Assembly (NCBI RefSeq): GCF_900110435.1
Contig: NZ_FODT01000007.1
Coordinates: 1-64,000, forward strand
Length of the DNA: 64,000 bases
Origin: Rhodopseudomonas pseudopalustris
GTDB lineage: Bacteria; Pseudomonadota; Alphaproteobacteria; Rhizobiales; Xanthobacteraceae
Reading direction: 5' to 3'
Positions 3,862 to 20,918 of the stretch are shown here, in pieces. The notes below the pieces were generated by a model that saw nothing but the letters and a program-made list of their open reading frames with translations, searched no databases and was not told where the DNA came from. Made by a program: the position numbers and the translations under genes. Every line of letters begins with the position of its first letter. Positions within the stretch are counted from its first letter, which is position 1.

Positions 3862-4986
3862 TCAGTCCCAATCCAGCGCCCCGCCGTTCTGGTATTCGAT
3901 GACGCGGGTCTCGAAGAAGTTCTTCTCCTTCTTCAGGTCCATCGTCTCGGACATCCAGGGGAACGGATTGTCAGTGTCGGCGAGCACCGGGCGAAGCCCG
4001 AGCTGAACGCAGCGGCGGTTGGCGATGAAGTGCATATAGCTCTCGCACAATGGCGCGTTCAGCCCCAGCAGGCCGTGCGGCATCGTATCCCGGCCATAGG
4101 CGGCTTCGAGCTCGGCGGCGTCGTGGATCATGCCGCGGATGTCGTCCTGAAACGACGCCGTCCACACCGCAGGGTTTTCGAGCTTGATCTGATTGATGAC
4201 GTCGATGCCGAAATTCAGGTGGATCGATTCATCACGCAGAATGTATTGATATTGCTCCGCGATCCCGACCATCTTCTGGCGCCGTCCGAGCGACAGGATC
4301 TGGACGAAGCCGGTGTAGAACCACATGCCCTCGAACACGACGTAGAAGGCGACGAGGTCGCGCAGAAAGGCCTGATCGCTCGCAAGCGTCCCCGTCTTGA
4401 AGTGCGGGTCGTCCAGGTGCTGGGTGTATTCGAGCGCCCACGCCGCCTTGTCGGTGATCGACGGCACTTCCCGATACATGTTGAACAGCTCGCCCTCATC
4501 GAGGCCGAGACTTTCGACGATGTACTGGAAGGTGTGGGTGTGGACCGCCTCTTCGAATGCCTGGCGGAGCAGATATTGACGGCACTCGGGATTGGTGAGG
4601 TGGCGGTAGATCGCGAGGACGATGTTGTTTGCGACCAGGGACTCGGATGCCGCGAAAAATCCGAGATTGCGCTTGAGCGTGAGCCGCTCGTCGTCGCTCA
4701 AGCCGTCACGGGATTTCCACAGCGCGATGTCCGCCTGCATTGGGACCTCGGTCGGCATCCAGTGATTGTTGCAGGCCGCCAAGTATTTCTCCCATGCCCA
4801 GCGATATTTCATCGGCAGAAGCTGGTTGACGTCGGCGCGGGCATTGATCATCCGCTTGTCGTCGACACGCACGCGCGCGGCGCCCCGATCGATGGCGCCG
4901 AGGCCGGTCGTCTCCTTTGTGGCGGCCGTTTCGAGATCGGCGAAGATGTCGACCTTGGCGGTGGCGTTCTTCATCGCTTGCAGCAT
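3862..4986 (-). CDS. nrdB: Ribonucleoside-diphosphate reductase small subunit (class I, R2)
   Basis: This 374-aa protein holds the di-iron/tyrosyl radical cofactor of aerobic ribonucleotide reductase and passes the radical to NrdA. Visible motifs are the first iron-binding block (FFAASES), [12 protein letters not shown] carrying E..H and the likely radical Tyr, EGMWFYTGF, and [10 protein letters not shown] with the C-terminal E..H ligands. The C-terminal tail ending QNGGALDWD is the usual docking peptide for NrdA. The ATG at 4986 is chosen over an upstream in-frame ATG because AAGGGA precedes it and homology begins there. It lies 19 bp after nrdA and shares its transcript, hence its cobalamin-riboswitch control. 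Confidence 0.95.
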
Positions 4987-5005
4987 TGTGAAATCCCTTC
5001 GTCGA

Positions 5006-7927
5006 TCACTGGCAGGCTTCGCAGGTCGGATCGTCGATCGCGCAGGTCTTGCCCCACGCTTCGGTGTCGACGTGTCCGTTGGCGGTGTTGCCGCGCGCAG
5101 CGTCCGAAGCGACGGCCGCAGGCATGAACGCCGACACGGCATTGAGCTTGCCGTCCGTGCCCTTCAGCGTCGACTTTTCGACATGGGTTGCCGATCGGGA
5201 CCGCAGGTAGTAGGTCGTCTTCAGTCCTCGCCGCCATGCCAGCCGATACAGCGCGTCGAGCTTCTTGCCGCTGGGATTGGCGAGATACAGGTTGAGCGAC
5301 TGAGCCTGATCGATCCATTTCTGCCGTCGGGCCGCGGCTTCCACCAGCCAGGCAGCGTCGATCTCGAAGGCGGTCGCGTACAGCGCCTTGAGATCGTCGG
5401 GTACACGGTCGATCTGGCCGAGACTGCCGTCGAAGTACTTCAAGTCCGAGATCATCACCTCGTCCCACAGGCCCCGGCTCTTCAAGTCACGAACCAGATG
5501 GGTGTTCACGACGGTGAAGTCGCCCGACATGTTGGATTTGACGTAGAGGTTCTGATAGGCGGGCTCGATCGACTGCGACACGCCGCAGATGTTGGAGATG
5601 GTCGCGGTCGGGGCGATCGCCATGACGTTGGAATTGCGCATGCCGGTCGTCGCGACGCGTTGGCGCAGCGCCTCCCAGTCCAGTCGATGGCTTCGATCGA
5701 CTTCTATTTCGATGCCACGCGCGTCATCGAGCAAACGGATCGAGTCGAGCGGCAGAATGCCGCGCGACCACAGCGAGCCGTCGTAGGACGCGTAGCGGCC
5801 GCGTTCGGCCGCAAGCTCGGTCGAGGCCGAGATCGCCCAATAGGCGATCGCTTCCATGCTCTCGTCGGCGAAGGTGACCGCTTCGTCGGACGCGTAGGGC
5901 AGTCTCAGGATGTTGAGCGCGTCCTGGAAGCCCATCAGGCCGAGACCGACCGGGCGATGCCGGAGATTCGACGCCCGCGCCTCGGGGATGGTGTAGAAAT
6001 TGACGTCGATGACGTTGTCGAGCATCCGCATCGCGGTCGTCACCGTGCGGGCCAGCCGATCGTGATCGAGCCGGCCTTGCGCCACATGATTGACGAGGTT
6101 GATCGAGCCGAGATTGCACACCGCGACCTCGCGCTCGGAGGTGTTGAGCGTGATCTCGGTGCAGAGATTCGACGAATGCACCACGCCGCAATGCTGCTGC
6201 GGTGAGCGCAGATTGCAAGGATCCTTGAAGGTGATCCACGGATGCCCGGTCTCGAACAGCATCGTCAGCATCCGCCGCCACAGATCGACCGCGCGAACCT
6301 GCTTGGTGACGCGCAGTTCTCCGCGTGCGGCCTTGGCTTCGTAAAGGGCGTAGCGCTCGGCGAAGGCCCGGCCGGTCAGATCGTGCAGATCCGGCGTTTC
6401 GTCGGGCGAGAACAGCGTCCACAGGCCATCCTGCTCGACGCGCTGCATGAACAGGTCCGGCACCCAGTTGGCGGTGTTCATGTCGTGGGTGCGGCGGCGG
6501 TCGTCGCCGGTGTTCTTGCGCAGGTCGAGGAATTCCTCGATGTCGATGTGCCAGGTCTCGAGATAGGCGCAGACCGCGCCCTTGCGCTTGCCGCCCTGAT
6601 TGACCGCGATCGCGGTGTCGTTGGCGACTTTCAGGAACGGCACCACGCCCTGGCTCTCGCCGTTGGTGCCCTTGATGTGGGCACCGAGACCGCGGACGCG
6701 GGTCCAGTCGTTGCCGAGCCCGCCGGCGTATTTCGACAGCAGTGCGTTGTCCTTGATCGACTTGAAGATGCCGTCGAGATCGTCGGGCACCGTGGTGAGG
6801 AAGCAGGACGACAATTGCGGCCGCAGCGTGCCGGAATTGAAAAGGGTTGGCGTCGAAGCCATGAAGTCGAACGACGACAACAGATCGTAGAACTCGATTG
6901 CCTTGGCCTCGCGATCGACCTCGCGCAGCGCGATACCGCAAGCCACCCGCATGAAGAACGCCTGCGGTAGCTCGAACCGCGTACCGTGGACGTGAAGGAA
7001 GTAGCGGTCGTAAAGGGTCTGCAGGCCGAGATAGTCGAACTGCAGGTCGCGCTCGGGTTTGATCGCGGCGGCGAGCCGGGCAAGATCCAAACGTCCGATT
7101 TCGGGATCGATCAGGTCGTGCGCGATGCCGGCTTCGAGATAGGCGCTGAAATACTCGGCATAGCCGTCCACCATCTGCGCTTGCGTCGCCTGCCGCGACC
7201 GCCCGTCGACGAAACTCAGGGCTTCGCGGCGGAGTTTGTCGAGCAGCAGGCGCGCGCTGACCTTGGTGTAGTCCGGTTCGGTCTCGACGAAGGTCCGGGC
7301 GGCGAGAATTGGCGCCAGCGCCAGTTCGTCGTCGCTGATGCCATCGTAGAGATTGCGCTGGGTCTCGGCGAGAACAGCATCGACCGATACGCCGTCGAGT
7401 CCCGCGCAGGCCTCGGTGATGACGGCAGAGAGCCGCGGCAAATCGATCGGATGCAACGTGCCGTCGCCAGCCTTGGTGCGCAACACCGGTTCGGCTGGCT
7501 TGGCCTGCGCGGTCGCCGCCTTGGCGCGCTCACGGGCGCGCTCCTCACGATAGATCACATAGGCGCGCGCGACCTTGTGGTGCTCGCCGCGCATCAGGGC
7601 GAGTTCGGCCTGATCCTGAACGTCCTCGATGTGGAAGGTGCGGCCCGGTCCGACGCGGCGGGTGAGGTTGGCGACGATCTGGTCGGTCAGTTCGGCAACG
7701 GTGTCGTGCACGCGCCGGGACGCGGCGGCGTTGCTGCCTTCGACGGCGAGGAACGCCTTGGTCAGCGCAACCGAGATCTTCGACGCGTCGAACGGCGACA
7801 CCTGACCGTTGCGTCGGATCACCTGATAGCTTTGATCGTGGATGGCCCCTCCTGCGGCAACGGCAGAGAAGGGCGGCGGCACTGCCGGGTGAGGTGCGGC
7901 AGACGCAGCGTCGGTTCCGAAAGACAT
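5006..7927 (-). CDS. nrdA: Ribonucleoside-diphosphate reductase large subunit (class I, R1)
   Basis: This 973-aa catalytic subunit reduces ribonucleoside diphosphates in aerobic DNA-precursor synthesis. Two ATP-cone-like regulatory domains seem present at the N-terminus (about 30-125, containing [18 protein letters not shown], and 140-235). The active-site cysteines lie in [12 protein letters not shown], in NLCTEITLN and in [10 protein letters not shown]. The radical-transfer Tyr pair is in TTYYLRSRS, and the C-terminal thiol shuttle is [12 protein letters not shown]. An ATG at 7927 and a TTG at 7933 compete for the start; ATG is preferred although its ribosome site is weak. The long leader (about 310 nt) carries a cobalamin riboswitch, which suggests this B12-independent enzyme is made when B12 is low. 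Confidence 0.95.
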
Positions 7928-8010
7928 TCCCAAGACCCCGTGGTGTTGGGGCGGGGAGCGCGAGCGGATACGCGAGCAGAAGTTCGTCCGTCAGGACCGC
8001 AACGACCGCT

Positions 8011-8235
8011 AAGCGACCCACCGGGACACCCCGCCCAGGGACGATTGCAAATGTCACGGCAGGTCTCCTGGCTCGCGGGTCGTCGCGTCGGTCCAGTCTT
8101 CCCGGGCCTGGTGGGGCCCAGTGACGAATTTCGGACGTCGGCTCGTCGCTTACAGTTGCGGGGGCAGCGCCGGTGTTACACCGGCTTCCCTCTTAGCTCT
8201 CGGGTCGCTCACGCGACTCGAAAGACCGTGACATC
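8011..8235 (-). promoter_or_regulatory. Cobalamin riboswitch upstream of nrdAB
   Basis: Read on the minus strand it holds the hallmark blocks: a GCCGGTG...CACCGGC stem, the B12-box core GCTGCCCCCGCAACTGTAA (around 8150-8170), a GGGAAG block and the 3' AGCCAGGAGACCTGCC (8057-8074). A GGGCGGGGTGTCCCGG hairpin at about 8018-8040 follows and is a good candidate for the P13/L13 kissing-loop hairpin. B12 binding is known in this family to repress the downstream gene. Whether control is by translation or termination is not evident, as no U-tract terminator is seen before nrdA. Confidence 0.92.
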
Positions 8236-8240
8236 TAGAT

Positions 8241-8267
8241 ATTGTATTAGTGCGGCTATCCGGTCAA
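8241..8267 (-). promoter_or_regulatory. Candidate sigma70 promoter for nrdAB
   Basis: On the minus strand TTGACC (8267-8262) and TACAAT (8246-8241) are separated by 15 bp, just before the riboswitch. The spacer is short for sigma70, so the assignment is tentative. It lies in the 47-bp gap after nrdG. Confidence 0.4.
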
Positions 8268-8282
8268 CAGGTTGTGCCGACT

Positions 8283-8948
8283 TTAGGCGGCATTCGTTGT
8301 GGGAGGTATTGAAATCTTGGCGCCGGTGTCACGAAACGATTGGATGCGCGTGCGTCCGGCGCCGAGCGCAGCGAGGTCCGCAGACAGCCGGTCCAGGGCG
8401 GGTTGGCCGAGAAGATCCGGATGAACAGTTGTCCGCAGGTCGCATTCCACTCCGCTAGCGAGAACCAGCGCCAGGCTGGCGCGCGCGCTGTCACCGCTGC
8501 CGGCAACGCCGGTGATCCGGTCGTATTCGGCAAACGGCGCTTTGACGTCGAAGCCGATCCAATCGAGCAGCGGCAGCACACGGGCGAGCCGTTCGGGATA
8601 TGGACCAGCGGTGTGCAGGCCGACACGAAAGCCTTGCGCGCGCACGGCTGTGATCGCGGACGGCAAGCCCGCCTGCAGCGTCGGCTCGCCGCCAGAGAAC
8701 ACCACGCCGTCGAGCAGGCGTCGTCGTGTTTCGAGGAATGCGAGCACGTCCGGCCATGCGAGCTGATCCGTCCCGCGGGCGGGCAGCAGATGTGGGTTGT
8801 GGCAGTAACCGCACTGCCAGGGACAGCCTTGGCAGAACACGGTCGCGACCAGTTCGCCCGGCCAGTCGCAGGTCGACAGCCGGACGAGACCGCCGATCCG
8901 CAGCTCAACCGAGCTTGGCGCGGGCTTCGGTGAAGTACTTGCGGTCAT
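8283..8948 (-). CDS. nrdG: Anaerobic ribonucleotide reductase activating protein (radical SAM)
   Basis: This 221-aa radical-SAM enzyme generates the glycyl radical on the class III reductase. The [4Fe-4S] motif is CQGCPWQCGYCHNP (CxxxxxxC-like NrdG variant with the terminal CxxC near residues 38-45), and the GGEP motif is VVFSGGEPTLQ. The start at 8948 overlaps the preceding 63-aa glycyl-radical gene by 44 nt, indicating translational coupling. It is the last gene of the riboswitch-controlled nrdD operon. The alternative start at 8969 adds only seven residues. The family and partner are clear from sequence and context. Confidence 0.9.
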   Translation of the reverse strand: MTASTSPKPAPSSVELRIGGLVRLSTCDWPGELVATVFCQGCPWQCGYCHNPHLLPARGTDQLAWPDVLAFLETRRRLLDGVVFSGGEPTLQAGLPSAITAVRAQGFRVGLHTAGPYPERLARVLPLLDWIGFDVKAPFAEYDRITGVAGSGDSARASLALVLASGVECDLRTTVHPDLLGQPALDRLSADLAALGAGRTRIQSFRDTGAKISIPPTTNAA

Positions 8949-9096
8949 TGAATTCGCCGATCTTGCCACGGTTGAACGAGGAGACGGGGCGGTGATAGCC
9001 CATCACCCGCGTCCAGATTTCGCAGGGTTGACGCTCGGCGTCGGTCAGCTCGATGGCTTCGGTTGCATTGGCGGGAATGGTGACGTGGGCGTTCAT
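8905..9096 (-). CDS. Stand-alone glycyl-radical domain of class III ribonucleotide reductase (NrdD C-terminal fragment)
   Basis: This 63-aa protein consists almost wholly of the glycyl-radical loop normally found at the end of NrdD: PCEIWTRVMGYHRPVSSFNR followed by GKIGEFNDRKYF. The Gly of RVMGY (about residue 33) is the likely radical site. It has its own ATG (9096) with a good ribosome site (AGAAGGAA, 7 nt upstream) and lies 17 nt after the nrdD stop, in a different reading frame. The main NrdD chain ends right after its zinc motif and lacks this domain. So the enzyme appears to be encoded in two pieces, which would have to associate. It could instead reflect a fixed frameshift, but the dedicated start and ribosome site argue for a functional small subunit. 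Confidence 0.85.
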   Translation of the reverse strand: MNAHVTIPANATEAIELTDAERQPCEIWTRVMGYHRPVSSFNRGKIGEFNDRKYFTEARAKLG

Positions 9097-9113
9097 CTCT
9101 CGTTTCCTTCTGG

Positions 9114-11135
9114 TCAGTGATGAGCAGCGAGCCGCTTGGCCGCGAGGCGTTCGGCGTCGCATGTCGGGCAGAAGGCGTGTTCGCCTTCGATGTAGCCGTG
9201 GGTCGGGCAGATCGAGAAGGTCGGGGTCACCGTGACGTAAGGCAGCCGGAAGTTCTCCAGCGCGCGTCGCACCAGCTTCTTGCACGCCTCGCCAGAGGAG
9301 AGCTTCGACCCCATGTAGAGATGCAGCACCGTCCCGCCGGTGTATTTGCGCTGAAGATCGTCCTGGCGTTCCAGTGCCTCGAACGGATCGTCGGTGAAGC
9401 CGACCGGAAGCTGGCTGGAGTTGGTGTAGTACGGATTGTCCTCGGTGCCGGCCTGCAGGATGCCGGGATAGCGCTTGCGGTCTTCCTTGGCGAACCTATA
9501 GGTCGTGCCTTCCGCCGGCGTCGCCTCGAGATTGTACAGATTGCCGGTCTGTTCCTGGAAGGTTGTCATCCGGGCGCGGACATGATCCAGCAGCCGCACC
9601 GCGAAAGCGTGCCCCCACGGCGTCGAGATGTCCTCGTGACCCGCGGTGAAGTTGCGGATCATCTCATTGATGCCGTTGACGCCGAGCGTGGAGAAGTGAT
9701 TGCGCAGCGTGCCGAGATAGCGCTTCGAATAGGGAAACAGCCCGTCGTCCATGTAGCGCTGCACCACCTTGCGCTTGATCTCGAGGCTGGTGCGGCCGAT
9801 CTCGAGCAGGGTATCGAGTGCACGCAGCAGGCCCGGCTCGTCGCCGCGGTGCAGATGGCCGAGCCGTGCGCAATTGATCGTGACGACGCCGATCGAGCCG
9901 GTCTGCTCGGCGCTTCCGAACAGGCCATTGCCGCGTTTCAACAGCTCAGTGAGATCGAGCTGCAGCCGGCAGCACATCGACCGGATCATGTGCGGCTTCA
10001 GTTCCGAGTTGAGGAAGTTCTGGAAGTAGGGCAGGCCGTATTTCGCCGTCATCTCGAACAGCCGTGTAGCGTTCTCGCTCTCCCAGGGGAAATCCGTCGT
10101 GATGTTGTAGGTCGGGATCGGAAAGGTGAAGACCCGCCCTTTGGCGTCGCCCTTGGTCATGATCTCCATGTAGGCACGGTTGATCATGTCCATCTCGGAC
10201 TGCAGATCACCATAGGTGAAGTCCATGTCCTCGCCGCCGATCACCGGGACCTCGTCTCGCAGATCTTCCGGACAGGTCCAGTCGAAGGTGAGGTTGGTGA
10301 ACGGCGTCTGCGTGCCCCAGCGCGACGGAACGTTGAGGTTGTAGACCAGCTCCTGGATCGCCTGCAGAACGTCGACGTAGCTGAGATTGTCCTTGCGCAG
10401 GAATGGCGCCAAGTAAGTATCGAACGAACTGAACGCCTGGGCGCCGGCCCATTCGTTCTGCAGCGTGCCGAGGAAGTTGACGATCTGGCCGATGGCGCTC
10501 GACAGATGCTTCGGTGGGCTGGCTTCGACCTTGCCGGGCACGCCGTTCAGGCCTTCAGTCAAAAGCGTCCGCAGCGACCACCCGGCGCAGTAGCCGGACA
10601 GCATGTCGAGGTCGTGGATGTGAAGGTCGCCGTCACGGTGAGCCCGGCCGACTTCCGGCGGATAGACGTGCGAGAGCCAGTAGTTGGCGACCACCTTACC
10701 GGACAGATTGAGGACAAGGCCACCCAGCGAGTAACCTTGGTTGGCGTTGGCATTGACGCGCCAGTCGGTGCGATCGAGATATTCGTTGATCGACGCGATC
10801 GCATCGACGGCGACCTTGCGGTCGTTGCGCGCCTGACTACGCTTTTCGCGATAGACGATGTAGGCCCGCGCAGTGGTGAGATGGTTGGCTGAAATCAGCA
10901 CCTGCTCGACGATATCCTGCACCTGCTCGATCTGCGGCACTCGGCCAGCGAAGCGATGCGCGATGACCTTGACGGACTGGCTGGTGAGCAGTCCCGCTTC
11001 GAGTTCGCCGAATTCTCCCGTCGCCTGTCCGGCACGCGCGATCGCAGACCTGATCTTGGCACTGTCGAACGGGGCTTGCGAGCCGCTCCTCTTGATGATT
11101 GCTTGAGGAAGGTCGGTCAGGTTGGTAACAGGCAT
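9114..11135 (-). CDS. nrdD: Anaerobic ribonucleoside-triphosphate reductase, large part (class III)
   Basis: This 673-aa catalytic chain of the oxygen-sensitive class III reductase makes dNTPs without B12 or oxygen. An ATP cone covers residues about 8-95. HIHDLDMLSGYCAGWSL contains the conserved catalytic Cys region, and NLNVPSRWGTQTPFTN and GSIGVVTINCARLGHL follow the family pattern. The chain closes with the zinc-ribbon-like CPTHGYIEGEHAFCPTCD and stops 12 residues later. The glycyl-radical loop expected next is in a separate small gene. The ATG at 11135 is chosen because homology starts there. A cobalamin riboswitch occupies the leader, so synthesis is expected to be lowered by B12. Confidence 0.93.
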   Translation of the reverse strand: MPVTNLTDLPQAIIKRSGSQAPFDSAKIRSAIARAGQATGEFGELEAGLLTSQSVKVIAHRFAGRVPQIEQVQDIVEQVLISANHLTTARAYIVYREKRSQARNDRKVAVDAIASINEYLDRTDWRVNANANQGYSLGGLVLNLSGKVVANYWLSHVYPPEVGRAHRDGDLHIHDLDMLSGYCAGWSLRTLLTEGLNGVPGKVEASPPKHLSSAIGQIVNFLGTLQNEWAGAQAFSSFDTYLAPFLRKDNLSYVDVLQAIQELVYNLNVPSRWGTQTPFTNLTFDWTCPEDLRDEVPVIGGEDMDFTYGDLQSEMDMINRAYMEIMTKGDAKGRVFTFPIPTYNITTDFPWESENATRLFEMTAKYGLPYFQNFLNSELKPHMIRSMCCRLQLDLTELLKRGNGLFGSAEQTGSIGVVTINCARLGHLHRGDEPGLLRALDTLLEIGRTSLEIKRKVVQRYMDDGLFPYSKRYLGTLRNHFSTLGVNGINEMIRNFTAGHEDISTPWGHAFAVRLLDHVRARMTTFQEQTGNLYNLEATPAEGTTYRFAKEDRKRYPGILQAGTEDNPYYTNSSQLPVGFTDDPFEALERQDDLQRKYTGGTVLHLYMGSKLSSGEACKKLVRRALENFRLPYVTVTPTFSICPTHGYIEGEHAFCPTCDAERLAAKRLAAHH

Positions 11136-11218: not shown

Positions 11219-11440
11219 AGCGACCCACCGGGACACCCCGCCCAGGGACGTTTGGTTGTTCGCGGCAGGTCTCCTGGCTTGCGGGTCGTCGCCTTCGTCA
11301 GCCTTCCCGGGATTGCTCCCAGTGGCGTGATGACGTCGGCTCACCGCTGACAGTTGCGGGGGCAGCTCCGGCCTAGGCGGTAACGCCGCACCGGATTCCC
11401 TCTTAGCCCTCGATCAGACGATTCGAGAGACCGCGAATAC
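11219..11440 (-). promoter_or_regulatory. Cobalamin riboswitch upstream of nrdD
   Basis: Minus-strand aptamer with the B12-box core GCTGCCCCCGCAACTGTCA (about 11348-11366), AAGAGGGAA upstream, a CGGTG/CACCG-type stem and the 3' AGCCAGGAGACCTGCCGCG (11262-11280). A GGGCGGGGTGTCCCGG hairpin follows (11225-11248), nearly identical to the one after the nrdA riboswitch. The remaining leader to the nrdD ATG is about 85 nt with no obvious terminator. Confidence 0.92.
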
Positions 11441-11473
11441 AATATATAGTGCCTCACACGACGTTTCTGTCAA
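11441..11473 (-). promoter_or_regulatory. Candidate sigma70 promoter for the nrdD operon
   Basis: TTGACA on the minus strand (11473-11468) matches the -35 consensus fully. TATATATT follows at 11448-11441, giving a 19-21 bp spacer, which is long. It sits directly before the riboswitch and overlaps the end of the upstream gene. Confidence 0.5.
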
Positions 11474-12006
11474 GCCGTCGATTTGCTTTCGCGGCGGACT
11501 GCATGCTTAGCCGTGTCAGTATCGGCTTGACGCCAAGCTTCGACTTGCTCCGGAGAACGCGCGAGCGACGCGATTGCGGCAGCGGGATACAGCACGAGAA
11601 AGATCGACTTCTTACCGTTCTGGAAAGAGGTATGCCCGGATGTCGGCAGCCGTCCGTTCTTGGTCCAGCGAAGTCGCTCCTGCGCACTGATCGCAAGGAT
11701 CTCCTCGACCACTTTCGCGTGGATTCTTTCGGACTTGAAGGCTGCGATTTCGGCGTCGATCGCGGCTAACAGGGCGGACATCTGGAAAGACGAGGTGGGA
11801 ATGATCGCGCGCGCACCGATGTCGTCGAGTGTCGCTTCGAGACGCCATTTTCGAAGCACTCTCAGCACCCGCCGAATGACAGCTTTCGCGCGGCGCGTCG
11901 ATCCCAGCGCGATGTCGAATGTAGGCTCGAAACGCAGCTCCAGACCATCGCCATACGGACCGAACCACACATAGCGTTTGCAATTATCCTGCTCTGTCGA
12001 CGTCAT
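11470..12006 (-). CDS. Hypothetical protein, 178 aa
   Basis: I do not recognise this protein. It is soluble, with no signal peptide or membrane segment, and is basic in parts. It contains RVLRKWRLEATLDDIGARAI and later RLRWTKNGRLPTSGHTSF, then an Ala-rich helix and VEAWRQADTDT. The ATG at 12006 lies 51 bp after the ScfR/RamB-type regulator stop, so the two may be cotranscribed. Its coding bias is like the neighbours, which supports a real gene. The middle could form a helix-turn-helix, but this is only an impression. Confidence 0.6.
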   Translation of the reverse strand: MTSTEQDNCKRYVWFGPYGDGLELRFEPTFDIALGSTRRAKAVIRRVLRVLRKWRLEATLDDIGARAIIPTSSFQMSALLAAIDAEIAAFKSERIHAKVVEEILAISAQERLRWTKNGRLPTSGHTSFQNGKKSIFLVLYPAAAIASLARSPEQVEAWRQADTDTAKHAVRRESKSTA

Positions 12007-12057: not shown

Positions 12058-13482
12058 TCAATTCGTCGAATAGGGAGAGAACGAGCCGCGGCTTTCGTCG
12101 ACATGGAGCGCGCGGCCGACGGGCGGGAAGGCGCGTTGCGGGCAGGCGGGCCGTTCGCAAATCCGACAGCCGGCGCCGATAGGCGTGGCCGCTGCGGGAT
12201 TGGAGAGATCGAGGCCGTCGGAATAAACCAGACGCCCGGCATGCTGCAGATCGCATCCGAGAGCGATCGCAAATGTCTTGCGCGGCGCGTGATAACCTGC
12301 CTGATCGTGCGAAACCGTGCGCGCCACCCACAGATAGGTCCGGTCATCGGGCATTCGTGCCAACTGCGTGAGAATCCGGTCCGGTTGCGAGAACGCCTCG
12401 TAGACGTTCCACAGCGGACACGTTCCTCCGCCGCGCGAGAAATGGAAATCCGTCGCCGACTGTCGCTTCGAAATGTTGCCTGCGCGGTCGACACGGATGA
12501 AGAAAAACGGCACGCCGCGTGCGCCCGGTCTCTGCAACGTGCTGAGACGGTGACAGATGGTCTCGTAACCCACGCCGAAATGCTGACCGATCAACGTGAT
12601 GTCGTAGCGCACCGATTCGGCTTTCTCCCGGAAAGCGGCGTAGGGCAGCAGCAGCGCCCCGGCGAAGTAATTGGCTAGTCCAATCCGCGCCAATTTTCGC
12701 GATGCCTCGTCGCCGAATGGACTTTCTGCGACAAGCGTGTCGATCGTGTCGCGATGCTCCAAAAAGGCGAGCTGCGTACCGATCTGAAACGCCTGCTGGC
12801 CCGGTTGCAGCCGGGCCGAAAGCCGAAGCGTGTTGTCGCCCGCGTCAAAGCTGCGCTGAAGATCCGCCGATGCGTCGCCGGTTGCACCGACGCGGACGTC
12901 GATGCCGTGACGCGATTTCAGCCGCTCGGCCAGCGCCGCCGCGACCTGCTGGATCGTTCGTCCGGTGTCCGCGGCGGTTCGTTCCGCCGCTTCGTCGAGC
13001 TCGGCGATGTAGTTGTGCCTTGCATAAAAGAAATCGCGAACCTCCTCGAACGGCGTGGACATTGCGGGTGTCGGTCGATCTTGCCGATCGTCCCCAAGAC
13101 GGGCGGCGAGGGCTGCCGATTGCTCCAGCGCCAGGTGATAGCGCCGATAGATCGCCACCAAGGCGCGGCCGGCTGCGGGCATGCTGGTGGCGAGTTCGCG
13201 CACGTCGTTGGCGGTCATGCTTTCGCCGATCATCGGGTCGGACAGCGCTTCCTTGAGGTCGGCGATCAGTCGCGCCTCGTCGTCCTCTGAGAACAATTGC
13301 ACGTCGATGCCGAGCGTTGCATTGAGTTTCAGCAACACCGGGACCGTCAGCGGACGCTGATTGTTTTCGATCTGATTGAGATAGCTCGGCGAAATGCCGA
13401 CGGCGGTGGCGAGCGCATGCTGCGTCATGCCGCGTTGCTCGCGCAGCCGTCGCAGCCGGGCACCTACATACGCTTTCTTCAT
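12058..13482 (-). CDS. XRE-family regulator of short-chain fatty acid metabolism (ScfR/RamB type)
   Basis: This is a 474-aa regulator. Residues 5-65 form a Cro/CI helix-turn-helix (LRRLREQRGMTQHALATAVG). The middle (about 170-330) is an ImmA/IrrE-like domain, seen as SPFGDEASRKLARIGLANYF followed by AGALLLPYAAF, though without the HExxH of active peptidases. The C-terminal part is the cysteine-containing DUF2083-type domain (GGGTCPLW, GAGCRICERPACPQRAFPP). Relatives (RamB, PrpR of mycobacteria, ScfR) sense acyl-CoA status and control acetate or propionate genes. Its divergence from the thioesterase-prpDCB set supports a role as propionate-pathway regulator. The ATG at 13482 follows a strong GGAGGTG. 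Autoregulation through the shared intergenic region is likely. Confidence 0.85.
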   Translation of the reverse strand: MKKAYVGARLRRLREQRGMTQHALATAVGISPSYLNQIENNQRPLTVPVLLKLNATLGIDVQLFSEDDEARLIADLKEALSDPMIGESMTANDVRELATSMPAAGRALVAIYRRYHLALEQSAALAARLGDDRQDRPTPAMSTPFEEVRDFFYARHNYIAELDEAAERTAADTGRTIQQVAAALAERLKSRHGIDVRVGATGDASADLQRSFDAGDNTLRLSARLQPGQQAFQIGTQLAFLEHRDTIDTLVAESPFGDEASRKLARIGLANYFAGALLLPYAAFREKAESVRYDITLIGQHFGVGYETICHRLSTLQRPGARGVPFFFIRVDRAGNISKRQSATDFHFSRGGGTCPLWNVYEAFSQPDRILTQLARMPDDRTYLWVARTVSHDQAGYHAPRKTFAIALGCDLQHAGRLVYSDGLDLSNPAAATPIGAGCRICERPACPQRAFPPVGRALHVDESRGSFSPYSTN

Positions 13483-13499
13483 CGCACCTCCGCAGATCG

Positions 13500-13545
13500 C
13501 CTTCGCAATCTTTGCAAATCGCCGCACCACGCTTCGCAATTCTTC
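13500..13545. promoter_or_regulatory. Candidate operator of the ScfR/RamB-type regulator
   Basis: Between the divergent genes lie TTCGCAA (13502-13508), the palindrome TTTGCAAA (13511-13518) and a second TTCGCAA (13532-13538), with TTCGCAG just after. TTTGCAA-type sites are the known recognition motif of RamB-like regulators. The clustering and position suggest a shared operator. Confidence 0.5.
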
Positions 13546-13625
13546 GCAGGTTTAGTCCTTTACGGCGGCCCGCGTTCGCCAATATGCCGAACCATTCGCC
13601 AAGACAAGCCGAAGGAGGTGGCGCC

Positions 13626-14048
13626 GTGAGTGCGACAAGTTTCGATGCGCCGCCAGAGACGCGCTTCGTCGAGATGATCTTCCCGGAGCAAGCTAATCAC
13701 TACGGGACGCTGTTCGGCGGCAACGCGCTCAATCTGATGGGCAAGGCCGCGTTCGTCGCGGCGACCCGGCGAGCGCGCCAGCCGATCGTGATGGCGACAT
13801 CCGACAAGATTGAATTTCATGTTCCGGTCAAGGTCGGCGATCTGGTCGAACTGACAGCCCGCGTGGTGCGGGTCGGACGCTCGTCGATGACCGTGGTGGT
13901 CGATGTCGTCAGCGAGGCGCTGATTTCCGGTGCCCGGCAACTCGCAGTCCGCGGCTCGTTCGAAATGGTCGCCGTCGACAAGGCCGGCAGACCGACGCCC
14001 ATCCAAGTTTCTTCACCGACGACGACCACCCAGGAGACGATTTCGTGA
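13626..14048 (+). CDS. Acyl-CoA thioesterase, hotdog fold
   Basis: This 140-aa protein has the short hotdog thioesterase pattern of YciA/ACOT-like enzymes: [20 protein letters not shown], then [20 protein letters not shown]. It should hydrolyse acyl-CoA in the cytoplasm. Its place as first gene of the methylcitrate set suggests short-chain substrates such as propionyl-CoA or pathway intermediates. The GTG at 13626 is chosen because AAGGAGGTG (13611-13619) precedes it; upstream ATGs lack such a site. The stop overlaps the prpD start by 4 nt. Confidence 0.82.
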
Positions 14049-15577
14049 AGCTGCATACCGTCCGAACCGCCCGTTCTGCCGACCGCTTACCCCGCACCGA
14101 GCAGCTCGCTTGGAAAATTGCGGAGGTCGCTGCCGATCCGGTCGCGGTCGAGCCCGCGGTGGAGGAGATGATCGGCAACCGGATCATCGACAATGCCGCG
14201 GTCGCGGCTGCGTCGATCGCGCGCCGCCCGGTCGCCAGTGCCCGTGCGCAAGCGACGGCACATCCGTATCGCGCCGGCGCGACGGTGTTCGGGCTGGCGC
14301 CGGACCGGCGCGTTTCGCCCGAATGGGCGGCGTGGGCCAACGGTGTGGCGGTGCGTGAACTCGATTTCCACGACACCTATCTGGCGGCGGACTATTCGCA
14401 TCCCGGCGACAACATTCCGCCGATTCTGGCGGTGGCGCAGCATTGCGGTCTCGATGGCGCAGCGCTGGTTCGCGGTCTCGCCACCGGTTACGAGATTCAG
14501 GTCGACCTCGTCACCGGCATCTGCCTGCACGAGCACAAGATCGATCACATCGCGCATCTCGGTCCATCGGCGGCGGCCGGCATCGGAACGTCGCTGCGGC
14601 TGCCGGCCGAGGTGATCTATCAAGCGGTTCAGCAGGCCTTGCACGTCACCACGACGACGCGGCAATCGCGCAAAGGCGAAATTTCGAGCTGGAAGGCTTA
14701 CGCGCCTGCGTTCGCCGGCAAGATGGCGGTGGAAGCGGTGGATCGGGTGATGCGCGGCGAGAGTGCGCCGTCGCCGGCCTGGGAGGGCGAGGACGGCTTC
14801 ATCGCCTGGCTGCTCGGCGGCCCCAAGGCGAAGTACCAAGTTCCGCTTCCGGTGCAGGGTGAGCCCAAGCGTGCCATCCTGCAAACCTACACCAAGGAGC
14901 ATTCGGCCGAGTATCAGAGCCAGGCACTGATCGATCTGGCGCGCCGGATGGGACCGCTGCTGCGGGAGCGCGCGCCGGACCTGTCGAGGATCAGCAGCAT
15001 CGTGCTGCACACCAGCCATCACACCCACTACGTAATCGGTACCGGTGCCGACGATCCGCAGAAGATGGACCCGAGCGCCAGCCGCGAAACGCTCGATCAC
15101 TCGATCATGTACATCTTCGCCGTCGCGCTCGAAGACGGCGGGTGGCATCACGAGCGCTCCTACGCACCGGAGCGGGCGGCGCGGCCCGCCACGGTGGCGC
15201 TGTGGCACAAGGTCTCGACGGTCGAGGATCCGGAATGGACCCGGCGCTATCACAGCCGCGATCCCAAGGAGAAGGCGTTCGGTGCGCGTGTCGTCGTCAC
15301 TCTCGACGACGGCTCCGTGGTCGAAGACCAGATCGCCGTGGCCGACGCTCATCCGCTCGGCCGTCGCCCGTTCGGACGCGAGCAATATGTCGGCAAGTTC
15401 CGCACCCTGGCGGACGGCATCGTCGAGCGATCGGAGCAGGACCGCTTTCTCGACCTTGTCGAGCGACTGCCGTCGCTGACCTCGGCCGAACTGAGCGGTC
15501 TGAGCTTTGCGGTGGCGCCGTCCCGGCTCGGAGCCGCGCCTGCGACCGGCATCTTCGACTGGAAGCCGGCATCGTAG
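14045..15577 (+). CDS. prpD: 2-Methylcitrate dehydratase (MmgE/PrpD family)
   Basis: This is a 510-aa full-length MmgE/PrpD protein: [20 protein letters not shown] near the N-terminus, [20 protein letters not shown]-like core (here [20 protein letters not shown]) and [11 protein letters not shown]-like [12 protein letters not shown] toward the end. It dehydrates 2-methylcitrate in the 2-methylcitrate cycle. The GTG start overlaps the thioesterase stop (GTGA). It is followed 35 bp later by prpC. No riboswitch or separate promoter is seen, so regulation is probably through the upstream operator. Confidence 0.92.
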
Positions 15578-15612: not shown

Positions 15613-16797
15613 ATGACAGAACACGCAAATGCGCGTCACAGTGCTCCGCCGAAGAAGTCCGTGGCATTGTCCGGCGTTGTCGCTGGCAACACCGCGCTGT
15701 GCACGGTCGGCCGGACCGGAAACGATCTCCATTATCGCGGCTACGATATTCTCGACATGGCGGAGACCTGCGAGTTCGAAGAGATCGCGCATCTGCTGGT
15801 GCACGGGGCGTTGCCGACGGCGGCGGAGCTAGCAACCTACAAGGCCAGACTGCGAAGCCTGCGCGGGCTGCCGGCGGCGGTGCGGAGTGCCCTCGAAGCA
15901 CTTCCGGCGGCGGCGCACCCGATGGACGTGATGCGCTCAGGAGTATCCTCGCTCGGCTGCGTTCTGCCGGAAGCGGGCGACCTCAATCATCCCGGGGCGC
16001 GTGACATTGCCGACCGGCTGTTGGCTTCGTTCGGCTCGATGCTGCTGTACTGGTACCACTTCGCCCACACCGGCCGCCGCATCGAAGTCGAGACCGACGA
16101 CGACAGCATCGGCGGCCATTTTCTGCACCTATTGCATCGATCGCGACCGCGAGAGTCCCACGTTCGTGCAATGCACACCTCTTTGAACCTATACGCCGAG
16201 CACGAGTTCAACGCCTCGACCTTCACGGCACGCTGTATTGCCGGGACCGGCGCTGATTTCTACTCGGCGATCGCTGGAGCGATCGGTGCGCTGCGTGGCC
16301 CCAAGCATGGCGGCGCCAACGAAGCGGCGTTCGAAATCCAGAAGCGATACGCAACACCGGATGAAGCGGAAACCGACATCCGGCGCCGCGTCGCTGCGAA
16401 AGAGGTGGTGATCGGGTTCGGGCACCCTGTCTACACAATCGCTGATCCGCGCAACCGCGTCATCAAGGAGGTTGCCCGACGGCTTTCGGTTGAGGCCGGG
16501 TCGGTGAAGATGTTCGAGATCGCCGATCGGATCGAAGCGGTGATGCACGAATCCAAGAAAATGTTCGCTAATCTCGATTGGTTCAGCGCCATCTCCTATC
16601 ACGCGATGGGCGTGCCGACCTCGCTGTTCACGCCGTTGTTCGTGATCTCACGGACGGCGGGCTGGAGCGCCCACATCATCGAGCAGCGGCAGGACAACAA
16701 GATAATCCGGCCGACTGCGAATTACATCGGACCAGAAAATCGCCTGTTCGTGCCGATCGAACAACGCGGTCCCGCGCCGTCATCCCGTCACGCCTGA
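15613..16797 (+). CDS. prpC: 2-Methylcitrate synthase
   Basis: This 394-aa citrate-synthase-family enzyme has the [20 protein letters not shown] opening typical of PrpC and the core [29 protein letters not shown] carries a conserved His, and [20 protein letters not shown] carries the catalytic Asp-equivalent region. It condenses propionyl-CoA with oxaloacetate. The start is supported by AGGGAGG at 15601-15607. Plain citrate synthase is an alternative by fold, but the length and prpD/prpB neighbours favour methylcitrate synthase. Confidence 0.93.
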
Positions 16798-16807
16798 AAG
16801 ATACACC

Positions 16808-17719
16808 ATGCCCTATCTCGTTGCTGCTGATCTCCCCTCCGACCCCGCAGGCGTGCGGTTCCGCGCGCTGATCGAGCGAGGCGGCATCGTTCGGATGCCG
16901 GGCGCGCACAATGGTATGGCCGCGCTGCAGGCGCGGGCGGCCGGCTTCGAGGCGCTGTATCTGTCGGGTGCCGCGATGACCGCCTCGATGGGGCTGCCGG
17001 ACCTCGGCATGATCACGGTCGACGAAGTCGCGTTCTTCATCCGGCAGATCGCGCGGGCAGGCGGCCTTCCCACCCTGGTCGATGGCGACACCGGGTACGG
17101 CGAGGCCCTCAACGTCATGCACATGGTCCGTACCTTCGAGGATGCTGGCGCGGGCGCGGTTCATATCGAAGACCAGCTGTTGCCGAAGAAGTGCGGTCAT
17201 CTCAACGACAAGAAGCTCGCCGATGCCCGCGATATGGCCGCCAAGGTCGCCGCCGCGGCCAAGGCGCGCCGCCATCTTTATCTGATCGCACGCACCGATG
17301 CGGCGGCGAGCGAAGGCATCGACGGCGCCGTGGCGCGCGCCAGGCTGTACATCGAGGCCGGAGCCGACGCGATCTTTCCCGAGGCACTGACCACAGCCGA
17401 GATGTTCCGCGAATTCGCTGCTCGGATGCCGGGCGTGCCGCTGCTCGCCAACATGACCGAATTCGGCCGGACTCCGTTCTTCACCGCCGACGAGTTTCAG
17501 CAGATGGGCTACCGGATGGTGATTTGGCCGGTGTCGTCGCTGCGCGTCGCCAACAAGGCCCAGCAGAAACTCTATGCCACGTTGCAGCGCGAGGGCTCGA
17601 CACAGGCCATGCTCGGCGACATGCAGACCCGCGCCGAGTTGTACGAAACTCTCGGGCTCGATCGGTTCGAAGCGCTGGATGCATCGATCGTCAGATCGAT
17701 CGCCCCGGCGCCGGTGTGA
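16808..17719 (+). CDS. prpB: 2-Methylisocitrate lyase
   Basis: This 303-aa TIM-barrel enzyme of the isocitrate lyase/PEP mutase family cleaves 2-methylisocitrate to pyruvate and succinate. The catalytic loop motif KKCGHLNDKKL and the metal-binding DGDTGYGEALNV are intact, with IARTDA further on. It follows prpC by 10 bp and closes the operon. Together with prpC and prpD it gives a route for propionyl-CoA that avoids the B12-dependent methylmalonyl-CoA mutase. An aconitase (acnD or acnA type) is not in the window. Confidence 0.93.
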   Translation: MPYLVAADLPSDPAGVRFRALIERGGIVRMPGAHNGMAALQARAAGFEALYLSGAAMTASMGLPDLGMITVDEVAFFIRQIARAGGLPTLVDGDTGYGEALNVMHMVRTFEDAGAGAVHIEDQLLPKKCGHLNDKKLADARDMAAKVAAAAKARRHLYLIARTDAAASEGIDGAVARARLYIEAGADAIFPEALTTAEMFREFAARMPGVPLLANMTEFGRTPFFTADEFQQMGYRMVIWPVSSLRVANKAQQKLYATLQREGSTQAMLGDMQTRAELYETLGLDRFEALDASIVRSIAPAPV

Positions 17720-17881: not shown

Positions 17882-17911
17882 TTGACAGTGCTGGATGGCA
17901 CTCGCCATAGT
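17882..17911 (+). promoter_or_regulatory. Candidate sigma70 promoter for metE
   Basis: TTGACA (17882-17887) and CATAGT (17906-17911) are separated by 18 bp and end about 9 bp before the riboswitch. The -35 box is a full consensus match; the -10 box matches at four of six bases. Confidence 0.5.
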
Positions 17912-17919
17912 AATCGCCG

Positions 17920-18135
17920 TCGAGGTTCTTCGGGCACGATCGTCCCGAAGCTAAGAGGGAAGCCGGTGCAAGGCCGGCGCTGCCCCCGCAACTGTCAGCG
18001 GCGAGCCGACGTTCAGCAAAGCCACTGGGAGCGATCCCGGGAAGGTGAACGAAGGCGACGACCCGCGAGCCAGGAGACCTGCCTCGTCGAACGAAACGTC
18101 CTCGGGCGGGGTGCCCCGGTGGTGCGCTTGTGGCC
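17920..18135 (+). promoter_or_regulatory. Cobalamin riboswitch upstream of metE
   Basis: Plus-strand aptamer: AAGAGGGAAGCCGGTGCAAG, the B12-box core GCTGCCCCCGCAACTGTCA (17979-17997), CCACTGGGA, GGGAAGG and the closing AGCCAGGAGACCTGCC. The following GGGCGGGGTGCCCCGG hairpin (about 18109-18124) matches those behind the two nrd riboswitches. Repression of metE by B12 when the B12-dependent MetH can work is the classic pattern. Confidence 0.93.
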
Positions 18136-18208: not shown

Positions 18209-20575
18209 ATGTCTTCTCTCACATCTACTACTTCTCTTGCCGTTGCCACACTCGGTACGCCGCGGATCGGTCCGCGGCGCGAACTGAAATTCGCGCTCGA
18301 AAGCTACTGGGCCGGAACATCGACGGAAAGCGACCTTTTGAAAGTCGCAGCCGCGTTGCGCGCGGCGAACTGGGCCCGGCAGAACGCGCGGGGCGTCAGT
18401 GTGATTCCGTCGAACGACTTCTCCCTCTACGATCAGGTCCTCGACACCAGCGTGATGGTCGGCGCGATCCCTGAGATCTATGGGTGGAGAGGGGGCCCGG
18501 TCTCACTTGCTACCTATTTCGCCATGGCGCGCGGCACCCAAGCCGAAATCGCAGGGCATGGTTGCGCCAATGGTCATCACCACGGCGATTCTGCACCGCA
18601 GGGCGTCCCGGCGCAGGAGATGACCAAGTGGTTCGATACCAACTACCACTACATGGTGCCTGAACTTTTCGCCGGGCAAAGCTTCCAGCTCGCATCGCTC
18701 AAGCCGCTCGAGGAATATCGCGAGGCGAAGGCGCTCGGCTACGACACCCGTCCGGTGCTGCTCGGGCCTGTCACCTATCTCAAGCTCGGGAAGTGCGCGG
18801 GTGCCGACTTCGACGTTCTGTCGCTGCTGCCGAAACTGGTGCCGGTCTACATCGACATCCTCGGCCGTCTCGCGGCTGAGGGCGCGGATTGGGTTCAGCT
18901 CGACGAGCCGGCGCTGGTCCTCGATCTCGATGATCGCGAACGCCTGGCGTTTCACCATGCTTACGGACAGATCGCGCGAGCGCTGCCGCATCTCGACGTG
19001 ATGCTGACGACCTATTTCGGCGGGCTCGGCGATAATCTCGACGCCGTGCTGGCGCTGCCGATCGCAGGCCTGCATCTCGATCTGGTGCGGGCACCGAAAC
19101 AGATCAACGCCGTCGTCGCCAAGGGGCCGAAGGATCTTGTGCTGTCGCTCGGTGTCGTCGACGGCCGCAATATCTGGCGCGCTGACTTGCCCGATCTGCT
19201 CGACCGCCTCGAACCGATCGTGCAGCAGCGAGGGAGCGACCGCGTTCAACTGGCGCCGTCCTGCTCGCTGCTGCACGTTCCGGTCGATCTCGAACTCGAA
19301 ACCGGTCTCGATCTGGATCTGAAGAACTGGCTGTCGTTCTCGCTGCAGAAGATGGGCGAACTATCAACGCTGGGGAAGGCCTTGAGTGGCGAGCGGGCTG
19401 CGGTACAGGAGGAGTTGTCGGCCTCGGCGAAGGCGGTCGCGACACGTCGCAAGTCGCCAAAGGTGCACGACATCGCCGTGATCACCCGTGCCGCGGCGGT
19501 GACGTCCGCGCTGGCCCAGCGCAACAGCGGCTTCGCGGCGCGTGCCGCGCTCCAGCATCAGCGCTTGCGACTGCCCCCTTTCCCGACCACCACGATCGGA
19601 TCGTTCCCCCAGACCGCCCAAGTTCGAAAGGCCCGTGCGGCCCATGCCAAGGGAACGATCTCGGACGCCGAGTACAACACGTTTCTTCGCGGCGAAACCG
19701 CCCGGACGATCCAGTGGCAGGAAAAGATAGGCCTCGACGTGCTGGTTCACGGCGAGTTCGAACGCAACGACATGGTGCAGTATTTCGGCGAGCAGCTCTC
19801 CGGCTTCGCCTTCACCAAGGAAGGCTGGGTGCAGAGCTATGGCTCACGCTGCGTTCGGCCGCCGATCCTGTTCGGCGACGTCTCGCGGCCACGGCCGATG
19901 ACGGTCGATTGGTGGACATATGCGCAATCGCTCACCGCAAAGCCGATGAAGGGCATGCTGACCGGACCGGTGACGATCCTGAACTGGTCTTTCGTGCGCG
20001 ACGACGTGCCGCGCAGCACCGCGTGTCGCCAGATCGCGCTCGCGATCCGCGACGAGGTGGTCGATCTCGAGAGGGCCGGGGCTAAGATGATCCAGATCGA
20101 CGAGGCGGCGTTGCGCGAGGGGCTGCCGCTCCGCCGCTCCGAATGGAAGAGCTATCTCGACTGGGCGGTCGAGTGTTTCCGGCTGTGTTCGTCCGGCGTC
20201 AACGACGAGATGCAGATCCACACCCACATGTGCTATTCGGAGTTCAACGACATCATTGACGCGATCGCCGCGATGGATGCCGACGTGATCTCCATCGAGA
20301 CGTCGCGTTCGAAAATGGAGCTGCTCGACGCCTTCAAGACCTACAAATATCCGAACGAGATCGGCCCCGGCGTCTACGACATTCATTCGCCCCGCGTGCC
20401 GTCGGTGGAAGAAATGACCACGCTGCTCCAACTCGCGCGACAGCGGCTGTCCGATGGGCAGTTGTGGGTCAATCCAGACTGCGGATTGAAGACTCGCGGC
20501 TGGGACGAGGTCGAAGGCGCGCTGGTCAATATGGTCGAAGCAGCGCAGCGGATCCGCCAAGTCAGTGCGGAATGA
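18209..20575 (+). CDS. metE: Cobalamin-independent methionine synthase
   Basis: This 788-aa two-barrel enzyme transfers the methyl group of 5-methyltetrahydropteroyltri-L-glutamate to homocysteine. The N-terminal half carries LGTPRIGPRRELKFALESYW. The C-terminal catalytic barrel has all zinc ligands: His and Cys in HTHMCYSEF, Glu in VISIETSRS and Cys in VNPDCGLKTRGW. Length is normal for the family. It is monocistronic behind a cobalamin riboswitch, with a stem-loop about 45 bp after the stop. Confidence 0.96.
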   Translation: MSSLTSTTSLAVATLGTPRIGPRRELKFALESYWAGTSTESDLLKVAAALRAANWARQNARGVSVIPSNDFSLYDQVLDTSVMVGAIPEIYGWRGGPVSLATYFAMARGTQAEIAGHGCANGHHHGDSAPQGVPAQEMTKWFDTNYHYMVPELFAGQSFQLASLKPLEEYREAKALGYDTRPVLLGPVTYLKLGKCAGADFDVLSLLPKLVPVYIDILGRLAAEGADWVQLDEPALVLDLDDRERLAFHHAYGQIARALPHLDVMLTTYFGGLGDNLDAVLALPIAGLHLDLVRAPKQINAVVAKGPKDLVLSLGVVDGRNIWRADLPDLLDRLEPIVQQRGSDRVQLAPSCSLLHVPVDLELETGLDLDLKNWLSFSLQKMGELSTLGKALSGERAAVQEELSASAKAVATRRKSPKVHDIAVITRAAAVTSALAQRNSGFAARAALQHQRLRLPPFPTTTIGSFPQTAQVRKARAAHAKGTISDAEYNTFLRGETARTIQWQEKIGLDVLVHGEFERNDMVQYFGEQLSGFAFTKEGWVQSYGSRCVRPPILFGDVSRPRPMTVDWWTYAQSLTAKPMKGMLTGPVTILNWSFVRDDVPRSTACRQIALAIRDEVVDLERAGAKMIQIDEAALREGLPLRRSEWKSYLDWAVECFRLCSSGVNDEMQIHTHMCYSEFNDIIDAIAAMDADVISIETSRSKMELLDAFKTYKYPNEIGPGVYDIHSPRVPSVEEMTTLLQLARQRLSDGQLWVNPDCGLKTRGWDEVEGALVNMVEAAQRIRQVSAE

Positions 20576-20617
20576 AGCGGCACCGTCCTGAATAGGCGCC
20601 CGTCTCGCTGCGATCGG

Positions 20618-20648
20618 GGAGGCCTTCGGCTTTGCACCGGAGGCCTCC
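20618..20648 (+). terminator. Stem-loop after metE
   Basis: A 12-bp stem (GGAGGCCTTCGG pairing with CCGGAGGCCTCC, allowing one G-T) with a 7-nt loop lies 43 bp after the metE stop. There is no clear T-run, so intrinsic termination is only possible, not shown. Confidence 0.4.
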
Positions 20649-20749
20649 AGGGCCTGAAACTACGACTCGTTTGGAGTCTCTCCAGACTCGGAACGGCTCG
20701 GTCTGTTCATCGTGTCTCCCGATTTGAACGTGGTTAATGCGCTGCGTCA

Positions 20750-20918
20750 CAGGTGTCTCTCGCAAGAGGGGTGAAACGGGAATGCGGTGCGGGACGACGT
20801 CCCTGAGCCGCAGCTGCCCTCGCAACTGTAAGCGGATCACGACGTCCTTGATGTCACTGGCCGGTGGTTGGCTGGGAAGGCGGACGAGCGATATATCCAA
20901 GAGCCAGGAGACCGGCCG
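20750..20918 (+). promoter_or_regulatory. Cobalamin riboswitch, orphaned by an IS
   Basis: A fourth aptamer: ACGGGAATGCGGTGCGGGAC, the B12-box core GCTGCCCTCGCAACTGTAA (20813-20831), TGTCACTGGCC, GGGAAGGC and CCAAGAGCCAGGAGACCGGC. It differs in detail from the other three and lacks their GGGCGGGGTG hairpin. The IS3-family element begins 13 bp further on, so the RNA is cut off from whatever it controlled. Confidence 0.85.

Follow-up and report, generated by a model that had tools for sequence, protein, structure and literature searches.

The question raised by this locus of Rhodopseudomonas pseudopalustris is why genes for cobalamin (vitamin B12)-independent enzymes, three sets of them headed by cobalamin riboswitches, lie side by side in a genome that also encodes the B12-dependent counterparts. 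The window (the whole stretch of DNA that was analysed) spans 64 kb of contig C14 in a 5.27-Mb draft genome, counted from the contig end. We propose, with a probability of about 0.72, that these genes form an accessory B12-independence island, whose modules were gained horizontally and gathered as a useful set.

Riboswitched B12-independent genes in the window

A preliminary description, made from the letters of the window alone, had called four cobalamin aptamers and named poor Rfam scores as a reason to doubt them. The Rfam covariance model RF00174 (gathering cut-off 31.5 bits) matches at full length (1-189) in four places inside 12.9 kb with scores of 110.1-142.8 bits, far over the cut-off, and this doubt falls away. 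The whole 5.27-Mb genome has 14 RF00174 matches; if even spacing is assumed, the chance of finding three further aptamers at most 12.9 kb from a given one is ~4e-5.

Protein families were assigned with NCBIfam models and Pfam (Table 1). Reading from the left, the first genes of the locus point leftward: o3007, nrdB and nrdA lie behind riboswitch 1, and nrdG, a separate glycyl-radical gene and nrdD behind riboswitch 2. They are followed by o11470 and prpR, also leftward, then rightward by a thioesterase gene, prpD, prpC, prpB, riboswitch 3 and metE, and finally by riboswitch 4. Riboswitches 1-3 sit just ahead of nrdAB (class I ribonucleotide reductase, RNR), nrdDG (class III RNR) and metE, respectively, and the prp genes lack a riboswitch of their own, just as had been described. 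The gene identities proposed earlier were also borne out by NCBIfam and Pfam matches, with NrdG recognized through its homologues: the class III RNR set is complete (NrdD, the separate glycyl-radical gene and NrdG), and so is the gene set of the 2-methylcitrate cycle (prpB, prpC and prpD, the last scoring under the cut-off of its model).

The B12-dependent counterparts on which the earlier proposal depended are all present in the genome. NrdJ is encoded at C6:394434 (2352.3 bits, cut-off 1737). PF02310 matches four places, three of which are named by NCBIfam models as BchE, MetH and methylmalonyl-CoA mutase, while the fourth gets no name; MetH (1689.1 bits) and the mutase (1139.3 bits) were scored on parts of their frames only.

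These assignments suggest how the locus could work. Plentiful adenosylcobalamin would bind the aptamers and lower the production of NrdAB, NrdDG and MetE, and the cell would use NrdJ and MetH; with cobalt or B12 in short supply, MetE would take over, together with the class I RNR under air and the class III RNR in its absence. Control of the prp genes probably runs through PrpR in response to signals of the propionyl-CoA type, not through B12, and these genes would offer a propionate route to a cell whose mutase is without cofactor. The modules would have arrived by horizontal transfer and been gathered for their joint usefulness.

Occurrence in the genus, the family and on plasmids

The genus was represented by 16 genomes including the present one (G000), in which NrdB was searched for at an E-value of 1e-20 and NrdD, PrpD and MetE at 1e-30. 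NrdJ is found in all 16, versus two genomes for NrdB, five for NrdD, three for PrpD and three for MetE; such patchy presence among close relatives, set against the universal NrdJ, is one mark of a genomic island. All four modules occur together and in identical order in G000 and G015, and nrdDG is the only one of them in G003 and G014. Neither NrdB nor NrdD was found in 11/16 genomes, and since these possess NrdJ, their DNA synthesis may hang wholly on B12, with room left by the searches for class Ib enzymes. Beside nrdAB of G015 (L102, 10884-16136), a B12 riboswitch heads genes for a TonB receptor, a FhuF-domain protein and an SbmA/BacA-like ATP-binding cassette transporter, perhaps a corrinoid uptake operon.

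In the family, 296 genomes taken from a larger group were searched and NrdD was detected in 13, of which 12 have a readable context (flanks of ~7-10 kb on each side). A B12 riboswitch lies ahead of nrdD in all 12, and the flanks contain a second B12-independent module in six: nrdAB in G000, G015, G277 and G130, metE in G070, and metE with prp in G120. Other orders of the modules are found in g38 and g56. The order riboswitch-nrdDG-riboswitch-nrdAB is seen in two genomes; in G120, prpR-prpDCB, riboswitch-nrdDG and riboswitch-metE fit inside 14 kb in an order unlike that of the window, and the flanks in G099 contain prpD and prpB in parts only. A genome of the same order, G023, served as a control: no NrdJ match was found in it at 1e-100, the only riboswitch in the 19 kb surrounding its nrdD is a flavin mononucleotide (FMN) riboswitch, not a B12 riboswitch, and its metE keeps a B12 riboswitch.

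Plasmid-borne PrpD was found in 23 records, some of them very large replicons, which were reduced to 17 at one per organism and inspected with ~11 kb on each side (L143 and L156 end at the record ends). A metE match lies near prp in 5/17 and is uninterrupted in three (Paracoccus yeei, Rhodococcus and Nocardia), where prp and metE are neighbours. A B12 riboswitch is present in seven of the 17 loci (P. versutus, P. ferrooxidans, P. aminovorans, P. aminophilus, Cereibacter, Rhodococcus sp. PD04 and Nocardia farcinica), and nrdD in one (Cereibacter). With assumed densities and with relatedness ignored, the 17 organisms would be expected to yield 1.0 riboswitch (7 observed, P 3e-5) and 0.1 uninterrupted metE (3 observed, P 1.3e-4); if Paracoccus is counted once, the excess of metE has a P-value of 5.5e-5. 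On pORIO2 of Cereibacter azotoformans, a plasmid typed conjugative, aceB, aceA, prpR, a thioesterase gene, prpDCB and riboswitch-nrdDG are consecutive, and the NrdD stretch is free of internal stops. A plasmid of Methylocella tundrae carries riboswitch-metE and riboswitch-nrdAB in facing orientation, and on Bradyrhizobium plasmids nrdDG is found among transposases, with a riboswitch-like motif just 5' of it in all four plasmids examined (a match to the motif only, not an Rfam scan). Synteny thus supports the suggestion of the preliminary description that the locus is a physically assembled island: the same island exists in one congener, and the same modules, reordered, in other genera and on plasmids.

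Matches to isocitrate lyase and malate synthase were observed near prp on Rhodobacterales plasmids (Cereibacter, P. aminophilus and Thioclava). The glyoxylate cycle is a B12-free alternative to the ethylmalonyl-CoA pathway, and aceBA may therefore represent a further B12-free module.

Leaders, the fourth riboswitch and adjoining genes

The leaders of nrdA, nrdD and metE share an element, CGTCC..GGGCGGGG, located 3' of the aptamer in 19 of 25 cases. It is missing from six (metE of G015 and G023; nrdD of G120, G070, G099 and Cereibacter) and from all seven added leaders (four from Bradyrhizobium plasmids, nrdD of P. ferrooxidans, metE of Rhodococcus and Nocardia). It occurs in 0/17 other B12 riboswitches and in 0/41 riboswitches that a motif search located in 40 stretches from 11 genomes without these genes, the stretches being the higher-scoring riboswitch rows of those genomes rather than all their riboswitches. 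In total, the element is present in 19/32 leaders of B12-independent genes vs 0/58 others (Fisher P 2e-11, to be taken as a guide only, given the relatedness of the rows and the choice of the pattern after the leaders had been viewed). A relic leader on contig C15 (see below) carries it as well but, being an nrdA relic, was counted in neither group. A looser motif, GGGCGGGG[TA]G[TC]CC, fails as a specific marker: it is found in 22/25 leaders but also in 2/17 and 10/41 of the others, and only the longer form separates them. In g38, the leaders of nrdA and nrdD resemble each other at 73%, vs 58-67% for the other leaders compared. An origin of the three riboswitches by one recent duplication is not supported, since each window riboswitch groups with those of its own gene elsewhere, in a tree that is weak and in which long branches meet.

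No terminator-like sites were found in the leaders of riboswitches 1-3, and platforms without terminators are treated as translational in a survey (PMC2258182), so that a block at the level of translation appears most likely from the sequence. Folding gives it no positive support. Twenty of the 25 leaders were folded (nrdD of G120, G070, G099 and Cereibacter and metE of G023 were left out): at least four of the five Shine-Dalgarno bases are paired in 17, three in two and two in one. Two results speak against the proposed control: pairing shows no excess over shuffled upstream sequence (mean unpaired 0.13 vs 0.16, 0/20 in the lowest 5%), and when the shared element was blocked, Shine-Dalgarno opening only went from 0.19 to 0.12, being lower in 16/20. 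The Shine-Dalgarno hairpin was dropped as evidence for translational control, because its pairing is no stronger than in the shuffles.

The closest relative of riboswitch 4 is a riboswitch on contig C6 of the same genome (79%), which precedes a gene for a FecCD-type permease, matched by BtuC models below their cut-offs. The leader of riboswitch 4 is split by an insertion sequence (IS) element with two IS3-like transposase frames, the first of which has a 79% relative annotated as IS3 family on AP014687.1. Behind the IS element the leader resumes, with 86% over 44 nucleotides to the leader on C6 and 77-78% over 69-83 nucleotides to leaders of relatives. As this homologous transport-type leader continues and the permease is gone, riboswitch 4 is, judged from the sequence, a relic of transport with no intact target, and we reject the idea that it switches the transposase or some other enzyme. 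Of the riboswitch set as first described, numbers 1-3 stand as heads of B12-free units, and the fourth turns out to be a broken transport-type leader instead of a fourth unit.

A second relic concerns nrdAB. At C15:102348 a riboswitch is followed by the same leader, the first ~17 codons of nrdA and a relative of o3007, with the remaining nrdA and nrdB unmatched (the matches cover 68-424 and 4636-5230 of a 5.4-kb operon query). This decayed copy suggests that the genome formerly possessed two nrdAB operons, in keeping with gain and loss. The o3007 family is tied to the riboswitched nrdAB operon (a 60% relative follows nrdB in G015) and was retained at C15 though nrdB and nearly all of nrdA were lost. 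Profile scans found no fitting family for o3007, and neither plasmid nor viral relatives were detected; its resemblance to DpsA lies far under cut-off, and its AlphaFold model is unusable (predicted local distance difference test score 45). Relatives of o11470 were found in G015 (63%) and beside nrdDG on one Bradyrhizobium plasmid (45%).

Homologues of nrdG occur in G015 (94%), G003 (84%), G014 and G009 (72% in both), and homologues are on record as the activating protein; the frame 8264-8908, considered as nrdG, proved to be the wrong one and matched no family. Among 80 loci (L015-L094), a stop codon separates the glycyl-radical part from NrdD in 74 (two look fused, one is unclear and three have no match), and the available parts of two RNR papers make no mention of such a split class III enzyme. 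Defence-like genes, coding for an AAA_13 ATPase, HipA, an AbiU2-like HEPN protein and a Tle1-like phospholipase, are located at 27611-39070 of the window, and a 3566-amino-acid open frame occupies a stretch of lower G+C content at 44627-55327. No tRNA was found anywhere in the 64-kb window.

Table 1. Features of the locus and related loci (window positions unless a locus is named; scores in bits)
Feature	Position	Strand	Evidence and remarks
o3007, 283-amino-acid protein	3007..3858	-	directly behind nrdB; no fitting family
nrdB, class I RNR beta	3862..4986	-	NF005550 663.7, cut-off 309; longest frame 3862-5142, start 4986 putative
nrdA, class I RNR alpha	5006..7927	-	NF005544 1730.5, cut-off 965; longest frame reaches 7933, putative start ATG 7927 placed from the leader
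nrdA leader behind riboswitch 1	7928..8040	-	CGTCC..GGGCGGGG element; no terminator-like site found
cobalamin riboswitch 1, ahead of nrdA	8041..8245	-	RF00174 142.8
nrdG, class III RNR activase	8283..8969	-	homology; frame opens with GTG, putative start
glycyl-radical part of NrdD, 63 amino acids, own gene	8905..9096	-	PF13597 positions 531-562 of 562, frame 8905-9285
nrdD, class III RNR catalytic part	9114..11135	-	NF006126 1127.4, cut-off 548; longest frame extends to 11228, start ATG 11135 putative
cobalamin riboswitch 2, ahead of nrdD	11247..11450	-	RF00174 139.7
o11470, 178-amino-acid protein	11470..12006	-	upstream of riboswitch 2; no family in profile scans
prpR, short-chain fatty acyl-CoA regulator (RamB/PrpR type)	12058..13539	-	PF09856 ScfRs 3.6e-74; RamB/PrpR-type regulator model 628.2, below cut-off 700
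acyl-CoA thioesterase	13512..14048	+	NF007970 46.7, below cut-off 162; longest frame, overlaps prpR start; true start probably near 13627
prpD, 2-methylcitrate dehydratase	14045..15577	+	NF042438 914.1, under cut-off 950; model named for high-GC Gram-positives
prpC, 2-methylcitrate synthase	15613..16797	+	NF009006 695.7, cut-off 550; start putative, longest frame 15142-16797
prpB, methylisocitrate lyase	16808..17719	+	TIGR02317 433.5, cut-off 354.4
promoter-like site ahead of riboswitch 3	17882..17911	+	10/12 match; 0.6 expected in scanned stretch
cobalamin riboswitch 3, ahead of metE	17906..18100	+	RF00174 137.0
metE, B12-independent methionine synthase	18209..20575	+	NF003556 1145.7, cut-off 541
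cobalamin riboswitch 4, orphan	20734..20934	+	RF00174 110.1; closest to leaders of btuC-type transport genes
IS3-type insertion element	20930..22203, ends approximate	+	two transposase frames, one in-frame stop in the second
remainder of riboswitch 4 leader behind IS	22204..22285	+	terminator-like site 22265-22281; permease gene gone
o3007 family	window 3007-3858; L132 5836-6690; L102 16302-17138
glyoxylate-cycle genes by prp	L149 4188-14601; L145 3696-14601; L146 9029-21851

Competing explanations, known systems and meaning

Several observations weigh against an assembled island. Within the locus, the prp genes are the unswitched module; in G009, prp-riboswitch-metE and riboswitch-nrdDG are on separate contigs; three of the 12 readable nrdD loci of the family (G003, G248 and G175) have no B12-independent neighbours by the queries used, and two (G014 and G009) adjoin only other riboswitched genes. 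In G023, three different contigs carry nrdD, metE and prp, which shows that the modules need not cluster. On the plasmids, metE of P. versutus has one in-frame stop and that of P. ferrooxidans is a piece only, and 9/17 prp loci (Thioclava, two Pseudochrobactrum, Pacificitalea with a PrpD that is a distant relative at 53%, two Arthrobacter, Paenarthrobacter, Streptomyces clavuligerus and Rhodococcus opacus) have no metE, nrdD or B12 riboswitch within 11 kb. With a single count for Paracoccus and a higher assumed density of riboswitches, the excess of riboswitches near plasmid prp becomes weak (P 0.048).

One alternative, which we regard as unlikely, is a broader B12-regulon cluster, in which genes for uptake, synthesis and B12-free enzymes are co-located through their shared signal and do not constitute a backup island specifically. 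It would accommodate the former transport-type leader of riboswitch 4, the riboswitched TonB, FhuF and SbmA/BacA-like genes beside nrdAB in G015, the position of nrdDG in G014 next to riboswitched cobT/cobS and a FecCD permease (the riboswitch layout is identical in G009), and the frames adjoining metE or nrdD in the g56 genomes, which we take to be cobN and cobW. The intact riboswitched genes of known family in the window are, however, all B12-free alternatives, and the transport gene has been lost. It is similarly doubtful that the clusters simply move together in the style of selfish operons, their regulation being irrelevant: the patchy distribution and the carriage on plasmids, some typed conjugative, would be expected under such co-transfer, but the modules do not form one operon and have retained separate leaders and orientations, and co-transfer is in any case not opposed to the island explanation. 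Least probable is that the modules are neighbours only through an integration hot spot, each gained for its own reason (the class III RNR to grow anaerobically, prp to deal with propionate) and their nearness without function, for although an IS element and defence- and phospholipase-like genes (HipA, AbiU2-like, AAA_13, Tle1-like) lie to the right of the island, and nrdDG is solitary in G003, G248 and G175 and surrounded by transposases on the Bradyrhizobium plasmids, the same few B12-independent functions meet in at least five arrangements across other genera, families and plasmids, and the three uninterrupted metE genes at most 11 kb from plasmid prp far exceed the 0.1 expected.

We retain the interpretation of the locus as an accessory B12-independence island and infer, with the preliminary description, that the clustering itself serves B12 scarcity. 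A wider form of this interpretation is offered tentatively, as its chances fall a little short of even: in Hyphomicrobiales, a common leader consisting of the aptamer and the shared element would head the unrelated nrdA, nrdD and metE, and B12-independence islands would be a general class of mobile, modular elements, whose modules (the unswitched prp and perhaps aceBA among them) are repeatedly reassembled on chromosomes and plasmids and turn B12-obligate into B12-facultative bacteria.

The separate elements of the system have precedents. The nrdDG genes have B12 elements in delta-proteobacteria that also possess NrdJ, for which B12 repression of the B12-free isozyme has been proposed, with reference to earlier work on such control for RNR and methionine synthase (PMC545781), and many genomes carry both forms (PMC6461909). 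The logic is the same here, with B12 riboswitches on the B12-independent isozymes metE, nrdAB and nrdDG, but there it applies gene by gene, whereas here three riboswitched units and prp are joined in one accessory island. The plasmid pSZ77 of Geobacter lovleyi (PMC3403914) likewise carries a metE redundant with the chromosomal metH, plus cobalamin genes, but is mainly devoted to synthesis and transport, and the available passages name no nrd or prp set. The methylcitrate cycle of mycobacteria with its regulator PrpR (PMC4428469) is similarly a B12-independent alternative to the mutase pathway, while the present case concerns an alphaproteobacterium with prp between riboswitched nrd and metE. 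No assembled island of this kind was found described in literature titles and the openings of abstracts; as far as these sources go, the logic of the switches was known before, as were the enzymes, and the recurrent, accessory, partly plasmid-borne assembly is the new part.

A transferable set that lifts B12 dependence at once would make dependence on this cofactor an accessory trait. This would bear on how B12 auxotrophy and B12 sharing evolve, and the locus would provide a test system for riboswitch-linked gene transfer.

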